This document shows, piece after piece, positions 49,480 to 54,036 of a DNA stretch of 64,000 nucleotides. Below the pieces are notes generated by a model. It saw only the letters and a list, made by a program, of their open reading frames with translations, did not search any database and was not told the origin of the DNA. A program made the translations under genes and the position numbers. Source of the stretch: an uncultured Methylococcaceae bacterium (GTDB lineage Bacteria > Pseudomonadota > Gammaproteobacteria > Methylococcales > Methylomonadaceae). The stretch is from positions 1-64,000 of the forward strand of contig CAJXMF010000002.1 of NCBI GenBank assembly GCA_913056195.1, written 5' to 3'. Each line of letters begins with the position of its first letter. The stretch's first letter is position 1.

Positions 49480-51246
49480 TCAGTTTCCTACCGGCTGCGC
49501 CAGTGCATCGGCCACGATTGCGTTGACATTGCTGCCGGTCAATGCGTTCAAAAAGGCTTCCAGGTCGTCCATTTCTGTTGTGGAAAGGTGCAGGGGATGG
49601 AGCAACGGATCCAGGTTTTTATTGGCAATGCCGCCCCGATTGTAAAATTGAATAAGCTCTTTCAGCGTTGCCAATGAGCCATCGTGCATATAAGGCGCCG
49701 TCAACGCGATATTACGCAGGCTTGGCGTCCTGTATTTCCATAAGTCGGCTGGTTTCTGGGTGATTTCGTACAAGCCTAAATCATTCGGTTTCGGTTCTGC
49801 AACCTGCTCAATGATGTCACGCGCAACATCAACCAATACGCCCGGTGCCAACTGGACTTTCTGTGGTATCTTGTCGCCCATGCTTTGCCGATAACCAACG
49901 CCGGTATTATGCAGTTGATTATCGGTAAACAGTGCATATTGTTCGGTGATGCGATGGCACTGGCTGCACTGTGCTTTCGTAGTAAAAAGTCGAAAACCAC
50001 GTTTCACCTTGTCCGAAACGGCGTTTTCCTGTTTACCATAATACCAGCGATCAAAAGGCGAATCGGCGGATACCAAAACCCGTTCATAACTGGCGATGGC
50101 CTGGGCCAGATTCATCATATCCACATCGCGCCCGAACACCGCCTGAAAGCGGCCTTGATAATCCGACAGATGACGAACCTTTTCAAGCAGGCTGCCAATG
50201 GATGGATTGCCCATCTCGTTTTGCGCCAGCAGCGGCCCCCAAACTTGTTGCTCGAGATTATATTCCCGCCCATCGTGAAACAGTCGGGTTAAATACGCTA
50301 CATTATAAATGGTCGGGCTGTTACGCCTGACGGTTCGCCCTTCTATACCGACCGCCGTCGCCATTTCATGACTGCTGAAACCTTGTTCCGGAATATGGCA
50401 CATGGCACAGGAGAAGGTATTGTTCAGCGACAGGCGACGATCAAAAAACAGTTTGCGCCCCAAGGCAATTTTATCGGCCGTGATCGGGTTGTTTGCCGGA
50501 ACCGGAATGGCCGGCAAACCTAATGGCGGCTGTTGCAGATAATCCAGAAAATTGACGGCAGCGGCAGGCTGTGTTTTTGCCAGCGTTTTCTCAGCCGTAT
50601 TTTCTGACAACAAGGTCTTGATATCATTGATCAATGTATCCGCATGCAGAAAATCTACGCTGTAAATATTGCGAACCTGCTTATGGGTATCGATTAAATA
50701 AACCTTGAGTAGATGCGAAAACGTGCCGGTAAACTGGCCACGTTCATCATAAACCTTTTGCACATTTTGCCGATAATGTGCCAATATCGGCGCCAGCTGT
50801 TGTTCGGATGCCGTGGTTAAAAAAAGCCAGTCCAGACCGCTGTCTTTAAACCCTTGCCCATAGCGTTTCATGGCCTCCGGGGTATCTTGTAGCGGATTGA
50901 AGCTTAAGGTCAATAACCTTATTTTTTTTGCAATATCCGGCTGTTTCTGCAAACGTCGGCTGATTTTATGAAACACGGCCGTTGCCAGCGGACAACCGTT
51001 AATATCACTGCATGTTGAATAGATAAAACTCAGCAAAACCACTTTGTCGCCCATTAAATCGTGCAGCTTCAAATGATGGCCCTCTGAGTCGATCACTTCA
51101 CCATCGGCCGCCTGTTCGATCACGGGGAGCTGATAACTGCCCGGCGGATCGGCTTTGAAGGCCAGTGGTTTATAACCGGGCGCCAAATCCGCCCAAACCG
51201 GCGTCAACAGGCTACAAAAAACAAGCATCCACAACGCATCACGCAT
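49480..51246 (-). CDS. SCO1/SenC-like copper chaperone domain fused to a MauG/cytochrome c peroxidase-like di-haem domain
   Basis: The 588-residue protein starts with a signal peptide (about 1-20). Residues about 45-215 form a SCO-type thioredoxin fold whose metal cysteines are C79 and C85 in STCSDINGCP (spacing of five rather than three residues) with His178 in FSHLLKVYLID. Residues about 245-575 form a di-haem peroxidase with haem sites C280-AM-C-H284 and C427-SQ-C-H431. Start ATG 51246 follows GGA by seven bases; a GTG at 51288 lacks a site. It lies 43 bp after mtoX. In other bacteria SCO and MauG are separate genes beside mtoX and are thought to mature the copper enzyme. Confidence 0.85.
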   Translation of the reverse strand: MRDALWMLVFCSLLTPVWADLAPGYKPLAFKADPPGSYQLPVIEQAADGEVIDSEGHHLKLHDLMGDKVVLLSFIYSTCSDINGCPLATAVFHKISRRLQKQPDIAKKIRLLTLSFNPLQDTPEAMKRYGQGFKDSGLDWLFLTTASEQQLAPILAHYRQNVQKVYDERGQFTGTFSHLLKVYLIDTHKQVRNIYSVDFLHADTLINDIKTLLSENTAEKTLAKTQPAAAVNFLDYLQQPPLGLPAIPVPANNPITADKIALGRKLFFDRRLSLNNTFSCAMCHIPEQGFSSHEMATAVGIEGRTVRRNSPTIYNVAYLTRLFHDGREYNLEQQVWGPLLAQNEMGNPSIGSLLEKVRHLSDYQGRFQAVFGRDVDMMNLAQAIASYERVLVSADSPFDRWYYGKQENAVSDKVKRGFRLFTTKAQCSQCHRITEQYALFTDNQLHNTGVGYRQSMGDKIPQKVQLAPGVLVDVARDIIEQVAEPKPNDLGLYEITQKPADLWKYRTPSLRNIALTAPYMHDGSLATLKELIQFYNRGGIANKNLDPLLHPLHLSTTEMDDLEAFLNALTGSNVNAIVADALAQPVGN

Positions 51247-51288
51247 AATCAAATCCAGAATCAGACGTCCCTGTCCGTTTACAATCAC

Positions 51289-52653
51289 TTAGTGCTGCAA
51301 CCATTGCGCCAATACAGACTGCTCGGGTTGAGCCGGCTTTTGCGCATAAAGCGAATAGGCACCAAACCGCATCTGATGCGCCCGTCCTAATTTTTGTTTA
51401 ATAAAATCAATGGCAAACTGTTGTTTAAGCTGTTGACCATTCCATTGATAAAGCTTCAGATATTGCTCATTGTCTTTCCCTTTTTTATCCCAGTTGGCCA
51501 ATAATGATGAGGTGTAATACAGCCGTTTTCCATCCCAGCTGGATGAAACCATATTCACTTGCGCGCCGATTTTCTGTTCAAAAACCTGCTTGGGATGAAA
51601 CGGATCGGAAATATCAAATGCACGGGTTTTACCGTCCATAAAGGTATTTACCCATAACATTCCATCATCACTTTGGATAGAAATATCCACCGGCAGAGGA
51701 ATTTTGGCAGGATTACCAATATCGGCCACGGCCTTGCTTTGCCATTGTCCGTGCTTATCTTCGTAAATCAACCAGATTTTTGAGGTCAGCGCCGTGGTGG
51801 TAAAGCAGTAGTTATGATTGGGATTCCAGGCACAACGAATTTCCAGCGGTGCGCCCGGCACATCGAACACTTTTTTCGGCTGGCGCGTATGAAGATTCCA
51901 TTGCACAACGGTATTGCCAAAGCGTTTCATCGCTTCCGCATCGCCCAGCATTTTGCCAAAATCCATCATGTAATTGGACCAGCCGGTAAACGATGAGGTA
52001 AACATGGCATTTTTGCGCGGCAAGACTCTCACATCGTAGCCATAGCCATCGGCATATTGGCCGGTTTTTACCGCGCCGCGCAGATTATCGTCAGTCGGTA
52101 TCCAATGTGTGGTGATATAGTCACCGGCATTACTGTATTCCACCAGTGCCGTCCGCCCGCCATGGTCTTTGTTATTGGACAGCCCGGTAATCATCATCGT
52201 GCCGGGTAAGGCATACATGGTATGTGGGCCGACCACGCCACCACTTTTTTCGACAAAATCGGTAATGACTTTGGTTAACCTGGGATGAGCCGGATCGGTA
52301 TGGACATCGAAAATAAAAATCTTGCTGGTATCGAGGCCGCCAGCCCATAGGTATTGTCGATCATCGGTAAAGCCGGAATGGTGGGCTTCATTACGGCCAC
52401 CGACGGAAATTGTGTCGATGACTTTGCCAAAGTGAGGTGATTTTGGATTGACATCGACCGTCACCAGTTTATCTTGCTCATCACCTACACCTTCCATGCC
52501 CAACGTCCAGACATAGACAAAATCTTCCTGGCCGGTAATCTTGGCCATGTAGGGCGACTGACAGGTTTCATCGGCAGACGCCGGGCCAGACAGCAGAAAA
52601 CTGCCGATGACTAAAACAAAACTGCGCATCAGCGCTGATATTTTTATTCGCAT
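51289..52653 (-). CDS. mtoX: Periplasmic methanethiol oxidase (selenium-binding protein SBP56 family)
   Basis: The 454-residue protein belongs to SBP56: landmarks are GGRNEAHHSGFTDD, GVVGPHTMYALPGTMM, GWSNYMMDFG and HQMRFGAYSLYAQKP. Members with a signal peptide next to SCO and MauG genes, as here (signal ends near ASA at residue 27), are copper-dependent methanethiol oxidases that turn methanethiol into formaldehyde, sulfide and hydrogen peroxide. The next gene encodes a joined SCO-MauG protein, which supports this role. Formaldehyde would enter C1 metabolism and sulfide the sulfur system. Sequence alone cannot prove activity. Confidence 0.82.
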   Translation of the reverse strand: MRIKISALMRSFVLVIGSFLLSGPASADETCQSPYMAKITGQEDFVYVWTLGMEGVGDEQDKLVTVDVNPKSPHFGKVIDTISVGGRNEAHHSGFTDDRQYLWAGGLDTSKIFIFDVHTDPAHPRLTKVITDFVEKSGGVVGPHTMYALPGTMMITGLSNNKDHGGRTALVEYSNAGDYITTHWIPTDDNLRGAVKTGQYADGYGYDVRVLPRKNAMFTSSFTGWSNYMMDFGKMLGDAEAMKRFGNTVVQWNLHTRQPKKVFDVPGAPLEIRCAWNPNHNYCFTTTALTSKIWLIYEDKHGQWQSKAVADIGNPAKIPLPVDISIQSDDGMLWVNTFMDGKTRAFDISDPFHPKQVFEQKIGAQVNMVSSSWDGKRLYYTSSLLANWDKKGKDNEQYLKLYQWNGQQLKQQFAIDFIKQKLGRAHQMRFGAYSLYAQKPAQPEQSVLAQWLQH

Positions 52654-53005: not shown

Positions 53006-53278
53006 TTATTCAGCCGTCGTCGGATCAATAACCGTCTTTACTTCAGACACTTTATTGGCCGGAAAGCCACCTTGTTCGGCATGCTGCCGAATCGTTTGCT
53101 CATCGGGTGCAATATAAACGCAGTACACCTTGTCCCCGGTCACATAGCTTTGCAGCCACTGGATCTTAGGCCCCATTTTGCTCAACACATCACAGGATTT
53201 CATCGAAATCTGTTGTAAATCTTCGGCCGTCAAATCCCCAGCCCCCGGTATTTCGCGTTCAATAATATATTTTGGCAT
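53006..53278 (-). CDS. DUF4242 domain protein
   Basis: The 90-residue protein with start MPKYIIEREIPGAGDLTAED and VTGDKVYCVYIAPDEQTIRQ (parts) matches DUF4242, a small ferredoxin-like alpha/beta fold of unknown, possibly metal-related role. Single gene; RBS GGAGGTGG lies six bases upstream. A palindrome-like site shared with the TetR gene promoter stands at 53299-53314, so the TetR regulator upstream probably controls it. Confidence 0.8.
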   Translation of the reverse strand: MPKYIIEREIPGAGDLTAEDLQQISMKSCDVLSKMGPKIQWLQSYVTGDKVYCVYIAPDEQTIRQHAEQGGFPANKVSEVKTVIDPTTAE

Positions 53279-53424: not shown

Positions 53425-54024
53425 TCAACGGATAAAATAATCCTCGAGCAAAAACCGACAACAATCGTCCAAAGGCTTTGCCGACTGCTCTATTTTCATC
53501 CGTAACAAGGCCCCTTGCCAATGGTTAGTCAGCAAATCGGCCATATATTCCGCCTCTAAATCTGTTCGAACAGTGCCTTGCCGCTGTGCTTTTTGTAAAG
53601 CTGTGCGCTGCAAGTCCCGGTAGCGGTTAACCACCCGTTTCAACGCTTTCTGGCATGCCGGACGATTATCACCAAGCTCGCCCATTAAATTGCCCAACAA
53701 ACAGCCACCTTGAAACCCGGCCTGTTCCAATTCAACAATCAAGCCCTGAAAATAATATTTCAATGCCGCCAGGGCATCTTCTTCATTTTCCTGTAAATGC
53801 TGATTCAAGCGTTGAATAAACGGCTCGATATAATGTTCGATTGCGGCGACGGCAAAACTCTCTTTACTGTCGAAGTAATAATAAAACGAACCTTTAGGCA
53901 CCTTAACGCTGTCCAGCAATTGCTTTAAGCCAGTACCATGATAGCCCTGAGCCATCAGCATCTCGACACCTTGATCAAGAAGTTTTTGCCGCTTTATCTC
54001 TTTAGCACTGCTCATCGTCTCCAT
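53425..54024 (-). CDS. TetR-family regulator, NemR-like
   Basis: The protein of about 199 residues has the TetR helix-turn-helix (GYHGTGLKQLLDSVKVPKGSFYYYF in parts) and a ligand domain with GGCLLGNLMGELGDN. The Cys falls near residue 105-108, like Cys106 of E. coli NemR, which senses electrophiles and hypochlorous species; a redox or electrophile signal is plausible. ATG 54024 and 54015 are both possible starts (a TTG at 54030 too); no site has ideal spacing. A dyad site lies directly upstream at 54037-54052. It is transcribed toward DUF4242. Confidence 0.87.
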   Translation of the reverse strand: METMSSAKEIKRQKLLDQGVEMLMAQGYHGTGLKQLLDSVKVPKGSFYYYFDSKESFAVAAIEHYIEPFIQRLNQHLQENEEDALAALKYYFQGLIVELEQAGFQGGCLLGNLMGELGDNRPACQKALKRVVNRYRDLQRTALQKAQRQGTVRTDLEAEYMADLLTNHWQGALLRMKIEQSAKPLDDCCRFLLEDYFIR

Positions 54025-54036
54025 GGCCAAATTATG

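Follow-up and report, generated by a model that had tools for sequence, protein, structure and literature searches.

The 64,000-nucleotide stretch of contig CAJXMF010000002.1 analysed here (the window; assembly GCA_913056195.1, from an uncultured Methylococcaceae bacterium) carries a gene for the methanethiol oxidase (MTO) MtoX, a protein of the SBP56 family, followed by a gene in which a SCO1/SenC copper-chaperone domain is fused to a MauG-like di-haem domain. Across the sequences compared, residue Trp225 of MtoX tracks MauG, residue Cys31 tracks SCO, and a CX5C motif in the SCO protein tracks MauG. The reading preferred here, with a probability of roughly 60%, is that the MauG half oxidises Trp225 and that the SCO half serves the copper/Cys31 site. 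The covariation between residue and partner is the new result, drawn from few independent events and with one clear counterexample; no report of it was found in open-licence papers, supplementary files lying outside the search.

Both positions correspond to residues already discussed for RpMTO, the Ruegeria enzyme, for which the available part of the literature names Trp223 and Trp386 (Trp225 and Trp388 here) as candidates for tryptophan tryptophylquinone (TTQ) and reports Cys28 (Cys31 here) as a methylthiolated catalytic cysteine. Residues were compared in a table of 128 rows, which skipped duplicate short loci (L088-L120 except L117, L151-L160, L191-L214 and L001) and matches spanning fewer than 250 residues, and which was not thinned for relatedness. 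In 89 of its rows, SCO and MauG lie close by. These 89 sequences represent 88 loci, with the window counted in and L217 entered twice for its two copies, and every one of them carries tryptophan at position 225. Nine loci were classed as SCO-only, among which L142 (at a contig end), L169 (genome G963) and L117 (genome G088) were kept apart, leaving six intact loci that read Lys, Lys, Phe, Phe, Leu and Leu at this position (0/6 Trp); the four on plasmids contribute Lys, Lys, Phe and Leu. The ten MtoX sequences of family f6 carry His in eight cases, Arg in one and Tyr in one (0/10 Trp), and the ten distant SBP56 proteins carry Pro (0/10 Trp), this group of ten excluding the G088 gene, as L121 in the distant group is the L117 gene. 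Cys31 follows a different pattern, being Cys in 84/84 readable rows with SCO and MauG and in 6/6 SCO-only rows, and Pro in 9/9 readable f6 rows; its column is not reliably aligned in the distant SBP56 proteins. Cys31 was therefore dropped as a candidate target of the SCO-MauG pair, since SCO-only loci keep Cys31 and lose Trp225. All of the eight loci that have no close partner carry Trp225 and, where readable, Cys31: for three of them (L026, L125, L126) the fusion lies at another place in the locus or genome, L144-L146 are drafts, L168 lies at a contig end, and L143 (G051) has a broken mtoX.

For the conservation scans, L021 was counted as well, its locus carrying the fusion at a greater distance, which gives 90 MauG-positive sequences; the tree that went with the column count held four distant rows, without L117, L121 or L143. 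At least 95% conservation was found in 156 columns, four of which are lost in all six SCO-only sequences and four in all ten f6 sequences; Trp225 is the sole column lost in both MauG-less groups, against a chance expectation of 0.10. It is also the only such column with at least three replacement residues (six kinds, with 16 of 17 MauG-less sequences changed, G963 being counted in the 17). Met230 is replaced in 16/17 MauG-less sequences as well, by Arg as the one replacement kind, and is conserved in 87/90 of the MauG group. At L217 (G1050), two tandem mtoX copies lie beside SCO and MauG, and the second copy, which reads TSSWTGWSNYMRDQ, keeps Trp225 and has Arg for Met230. The rule linking Trp225 to MauG was fixed in writing before new alpha- and gammaproteobacteria were sampled; this fresh sampling gave two new SCO-only loci, with Phe and Leu at position 225, and new MauG loci with Trp.

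According to the available text of PMC5739008, the TTQ tryptophans show strict conservation across three domains of life. However, the present alignment shows no such conservation for Trp225. Its distant SBP56 proteins do have a Trp three columns before this position, and the paper may have meant that residue. The N-terminus of the native Hyphomicrobium enzyme, read as DETXNSPFTTALITG in the available part of its published account, places the X at the equivalent of Cys31; any unprotected cysteine is expected to go unread, so this read proves nothing.

Natural contrasts come from several lineages. In f6 (10 genomes), MtoX is present with no close SCO-MauG, and these MtoX sequences form one clade (support 100) inside gammaproteobacterial MtoX. 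Relocation of the f6 MauG elsewhere was rejected: in seven f6 genomes, the MauG-like proteins group on a long branch of their own, the loci that hold them gave no SCO match over 60 bits, and G035 gave nothing beyond weak matches. On two plasmids each of Skermanella and Microvirga, mtoX is accompanied by SCO and the plasmid gave no MauG match, and a divergent locus in G088 has SCO without close MauG, its SCO protein being CX3C and its MtoX keeping the Cys and carrying Gln at position 225. On the eight plasmid-borne distant SBP56 loci, no SCO or MauG match above 40 bits was found; at L172 and L173, on Rhodobacterales plasmids, the gene after the distant SBP56 gene codes for a 2Fe-2S protein rather than for SCO or MauG.

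The canonical copper motif of SCO1/SenC proteins is CX3C, and the SCO half in the window departs from it with CX5C. Of the 131 SCO rows, L081 and L129, which are a single gene, could not be read at the motif, and L142 has CX5C but shows no MauG as its contig ends. CX5C was found in 121/121 readable SCO proteins with MauG on the locus, whether fused or split, and CX3C in 7/7 SCO-only proteins, G963 included, and in all 12 generic SCO paralogues with a printed motif on these loci. In a tree of 73 chosen rows, the SCO-only proteins fall among the MtoX-linked SCO proteins (a 16-row group, support 92/71), and the eight generic paralogues tested sit apart from these (100/100). These patterns suggest that SCO proteins coupled to MauG make up a subfamily in which the copper motif is altered.

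The MauG half resembles MbnH more than the MauG that forms TTQ, as it scores 245.8 bits on TIGR04039 (MbnH family; cut-off 362.85) and 196.7 bits on TIGR03791 (TTQ MauG equivalog; cut-off 443.85), both below the cut-off, and the best solved match of the fused protein is 6e1c, a 'Di-heme enzyme' (MbnH). Membership of the wider di-haem peroxidase/MauG superfamily is clear (PF03150, 179.5 bits versus a gathering threshold of 25.6), and residues 274-551 align with residues 11-296 of the MauG chain. Two c-type haem sites and a conserved Tyr549 are present, the tyrosine being a putative ligand by analogy with MauG; it aligns near MauG chain position 294, which we take to be the MauG axial tyrosine. 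By eye, this column holds Met in three of the four peroxidase alignments shown and a gap in the fourth, and Tyr in MbnH. The structural model of the fused protein has a mean predicted local distance difference test score (pLDDT) of 70.6 and a predicted template modelling score (pTM) of 0.56, with much of the haem domain poorly modelled.

In the preferred reading, this is a methanethiol oxidase operon whose fused gene encodes a bifunctional protein, probably periplasmic, for the maturation of MtoX. The MauG-type half, with a putative His/Tyr-ligated haem, would most likely carry out a peroxide-level oxidation of MtoX Trp225, and the product would be a tryptophan-derived group, either a Trp225-Trp388 cross-link as in TTQ or Trp225 oxidised alone. 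The atypical CX5C SCO half most likely serves the copper site and catalytic Cys31. The sequences themselves show the gene identities, the fusion, the conserved ligands and the links of Trp225 to MauG, Cys31 to SCO and CX5C to MauG; the chemical modification of Trp225, the nature of its product and copper loading by SCO are inferred. As the MauG half favours the MbnH-like model over the TTQ MauG model and reaches neither cut-off, oxidation of Trp225 is favoured and its product left open. MbnH acting on MbnP oxidises a tryptophan without a cross-link. A broader scheme, to which we give slightly less than even odds, would distinguish three maturation grades of methanethiol oxidase, recognisable from sequence: (I) CX5C SCO with MauG, Cys31 and a MauG-modified Trp225; (II) CX3C SCO alone, with Cys31 and no Trp225; and (III) no helper and neither residue. 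A tryptophan-derived cofactor would then be installed by MauG in grade I only, and the remodelled SCO would hand substrate or copper over to MauG, explaining the fusion.

Several observations weigh against the oxidation of Trp225 by MauG. The Trp225-MauG rule failed its first test at G963, a one-contig genome in which SCO is present and Trp225 is kept with no MauG match at E<=1e-20; its mtoX is frameshifted, and may be decaying or carry a sequencing error. Trp225 is likewise kept with no close SCO-MauG in G051 (one contig), where mtoX has an internal stop and apparently decays jointly with its helpers, and with no close MauG match in G127, G139 and G189, all drafts of 380-520 contigs. Lineages without MauG amount to f6, one alphaproteobacterial clade and the divergent G088, which makes the independent events few; the absence of MauG refers to the mtoX locus in G1110 and G1076 and to the plasmid in Skermanella and Microvirga, and two of the ten distant SBP56 proteins (L121b, L224b) share loci L121 and L224 with another mtoX and helpers. 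Trp388, the second proposed TTQ residue, does not follow MauG, being kept without it in 10/10 f6 and 6/6 intact SCO-only sequences, and the MtoX model has low confidence near this Trp225 (pLDDT about 65). Finally, Ruegeria MTO made in E. coli from an mtoX plasmid is reported as active in the available part of its published account, as is recombinant human SELENBP1 with copper in its own report; some activity can therefore arise without the modification.

The alternatives differ in what MauG would do to Trp225, if anything. Cross-linking of Trp225 to Trp388 into TTQ, the 2017 proposal for this enzyme, can be held only tentatively: both tryptophans are candidates named for RpMTO in the available literature (Trp223 and Trp386, mapped by numbering) and Trp225 follows MauG, but the retention of Trp388 speaks against it, as does the score of the MauG half on the TTQ MauG model (197 bits, cut-off 444) versus that on the MbnH model (246 bits). 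Oxidation of Trp225 alone in the manner of MbnH, with kynurenine or hydroxytryptophan as possible products that shape the copper site, would account for Trp225 rather than Trp388 following MauG and agrees with the best family model and the best solved match, 6e1c; however, this specific outcome is doubtful, as the TIGR04039 cut-off (363 bits) is missed and the MbnH-MbnP chemistry is carried over from general background.

Trp225 may instead be an electron-transfer or docking residue, the MauG half clearing MtoX peroxide or acting as an electron partner with no permanent modification. An interface residue could covary with MauG in this way, Met230, five residues on, changes too, and di-haem peroxidases are close relatives; this explanation is nevertheless unlikely, as Tyr549 stands, by eye, where peroxidases mostly have Met and MbnH has Tyr, and the available text of PMC10936201 reports no peroxide from Ruegeria MTO. 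Least can be said for a coincidence of lineage, in which the position drifted in two lineages for other reasons. The few independent MauG-less lineages, the exception of G963 and the chance expectation of 0.10 for one shared column leave room for it, but that column holds one of the two tryptophans which the literature had already singled out, its six different replacements suggest a released constraint, and the two fresh loci fit the rule, making such a coincidence decidedly improbable.

The preliminary description of this DNA had placed a 588-residue SCO-MauG polypeptide directly downstream of mtoX, which the ATG start and the domain searches bear out, and its gene identities and its association of the fusion with MtoX agree with the family models and with the 172 genomes that hold both. 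One scan for relatives of the fused protein gave 140 loci, and in 80/80 of the listed relatives (the best 80 of the 140) both domains share one open frame, which rules out an assembly-join artefact. These best 80 are mostly Methylococcales, with Sedimenticola, Thiolinea and other Gammaproteobacteria; the closest, 88% identical, is from the methane-oxidising symbiont of Gigantopelta aegis, and its coordinates coincide with those of G173 (same genus as the window genome, 89%). The premise that SCO and MauG were known only as separate genes was mistaken, as the fusion is mentioned as early as 2017 in the available text of PMC5739008, and that of PMC6548844, from 2019, places it in both mto clusters of Methylophaga thiooxydans, where it is dimethylsulfide-induced; the available part of PMC9003020 lists putative MTOs for many methanotroph genera. 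The fused gene is a further member of this published arrangement, and the fusion itself is not new. The suggestion that copper delivery and MauG-type cofactor formation are coupled is partly supported, independently of the fusion, by the SCO motif changing with MauG presence. However, natural loci with SCO and no MauG exist, which makes the two steps look separable, and the fusion alone is no proof of obligate coupling. Sulfide, which had been given as a product of methanethiol oxidation, is disputed, as the available text of PMC10936201 has sulfane sulfur rather than sulfide.

Co-occurrence was assessed in 301 Methylococcales genomes (strong MtoX at E<1e-20, strong fused or split SCO-MauG at E<1e-100; rows sorted by hand). 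Strong MtoX was found in 192 genomes and strong SCO-MauG in 180; 172 genomes have both, 8 have SCO-MauG alone, 20 have MtoX alone (ten of these forming the one family f6) and 101 have neither. A fusion in a genome lacking mtoX was thus sought and seen in 8/180 genomes, every one a draft of at least 40 contigs, and these cases were not taken as a refutation; in one of them, G120, the fused gene sits at a contig end. The fusion is often unlinked from mtoX, which is missing from 28/80 listed fusion loci, and a clear mtoX match was found in 25 of those 28 genomes (27/30 searched, with L021 and L026 included). Outside Methylococcales, MtoX of this type is uncommon, occurring in 4/348 other genomes across the phylum and, in further draws among which some genomes recur, in 5/195, 7/199 and 7/318; a class-level draw gave 18/203, including the window and one other Methylococcales genome.

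In L082-L086 (family f7, genus g35), mtoX, SCO and MauG are separate genes, and the grouping of the f7 MauG with a fused form, in a tree of the loci gathered first, may point to gene fission. More gammaproteobacterial loci, beyond those of that tree, have SCO and MauG in separate frames (e.g., L226-L229, L231, L233), so the change may have run in either direction. At four of the five f7 loci, the next frame looks like a class III alcohol dehydrogenase gene, and several also have an S-formylglutathione hydrolase-like frame (names by eye). At L230 (G1316) and L224 (G1365), a fused SCO-MauG gene is followed by an extra, separate MauG-like frame.

In the window, the fused frame begins on the base right after the mtoX stop. 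The mtoX product is methanethiol oxidase by its sequence, with an SBP56 profile match (E 4.6e-49), a score above the 650-bit cut-off of the NCBIfam equivalog NF052453, and all of the putative copper histidines (H91, H92, H144, H426) and the TCxSPY cysteine C31, numbered by alignment to RpMTO; it has a likely signal peptide (judged by eye), and a fold search returned 2ece first, then generic propellers. In the fused protein, the profile search placed SCO1-SenC at 65-205, CCP_MauG at 272-420 and cytochrome c at 428-581, with PF02630 at 58.4 bits versus a gathering threshold of 22.8. Upstream of mtoX lie genes for a SCO4226-like small protein and a TetR regulator, and downstream of the fused gene those for a TrhP-type U32 protein and an RND adaptor. 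The SCO4226-like small protein and the AcuR-like TetR regulator recur on mtoX loci (the window, L132-L141, L002, L004, L005 and others). Counted as presence on loci of unequal length rather than adjacency, the SCO4226-like gene is on 8/10 f6 loci and 18/88 SCO+MauG rows and the TetR gene on 8/10 f6 loci; both genes lie around many SCO-MauG-linked mtoX, as in f6.

Table 1. Features of the mtoX region in window coordinates
Feature	Coordinates	Strand	Remarks
mtoX, methanethiol oxidase, SBP56 family, TCxSPY-motif cluster	52653..51289	-	454 aa; NF052453 780 bits
Fused SCO1/SenC - MauG-like di-haem gene	51288..49480	-	602 aa from GTG
ATG at residue 15 of fused frame	51246	-	alternative start, giving 588 aa
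SCO1/SenC half, residues 65-205	50674..51096	-	Pfam PF02630
MauG/MbnH-like di-haem half, residues 263-588	49525..50502	-	TIGR04039, 246 bits, under cut-off
SCO motif C93-S-D-I-N-G-C99 (CX5C)	50992..51012	-	motif comparison across SCO rows
SCO-half distal His192	50713..50715	-	H in 131/131 rows
Haem-binding CxxCH 1, residues 294-298	50395..50409	-	C, C, H each in 123/124 rows, one gap
Haem-binding CxxCH 2, residues 441-445	49954..49968	-	kept in 124/124 rows
Tyr549, putative axial haem ligand	49642..49644	-	Y in 124/124 rows
MtoX Cys31 (= RpMTO Cys28)	52561..52563	-	tracks SCO presence
MtoX Trp225 (= RpMTO Trp223)	51979..51981	-	tracks MauG; proposed MauG target
MtoX Trp388 (= RpMTO Trp386), second proposed TTQ tryptophan	51490..51492	-	kept with and without MauG
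SCO4226-like (PF14026) small protein, upstream of mtoX	53006..53278	-	recurring mtoX neighbour
TetR-family regulator, AcuR-like (under AcuR cut-off)	53425..54030	-	recurring mtoX neighbour

Methanethiol oxidase is central to the turnover of dimethylsulfide and dimethylsulfoniopropionate, and its cofactor has been unsettled since 2017, with copper supported and TTQ merely proposed. The covariation points to one residue for each helper, with a lineage lacking both genes and a clade with SCO only as natural contrasts. It opens the cofactor question to direct testing by mass spectrometry and mutagenesis, and provides a rule by which SBP56 proteins from metagenomes can be sorted on sequence.

Among known systems, the mto clusters of Methylophaga thiooxydans have the same SCO1 and MauG-type polypeptide directly downstream of mtoX, according to the available text of PMC6548844, which has TlpA-like, persulfide dioxygenase and sqr genes there, whereas the window has the TrhP and RND adaptor genes; the window host, unlike Methylophaga thiooxydans, is a relative of the Gigantopelta methane-oxidising symbiont. 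Ruegeria pomeroyi and Hyphomicrobium have the same three functions in the same order, mtoX-SCO-mauG (L170), as far as their available descriptions go, but with SCO and MauG as separate genes, the Ruegeria SCO also being CX5C. The MauG of methylamine dehydrogenase is likewise di-haem, with a Tyr near the aligned ligand position; in contrast, the window half falls under the TTQ MauG cut-off, is fused to SCO and presumably acts on MtoX. MbnH (6e1c) is the closest solved sequence and the closest NCBIfam model to this half, which differs in falling under the curated cut-off and in having mtoX as neighbour rather than an MbnP-type gene. The SCO half, finally, shares its Pfam family, two Cys and distal His with the SCO1/SenC copper chaperones, from which it differs in a loop two residues longer (CX5C), as do all readable MauG-linked members.

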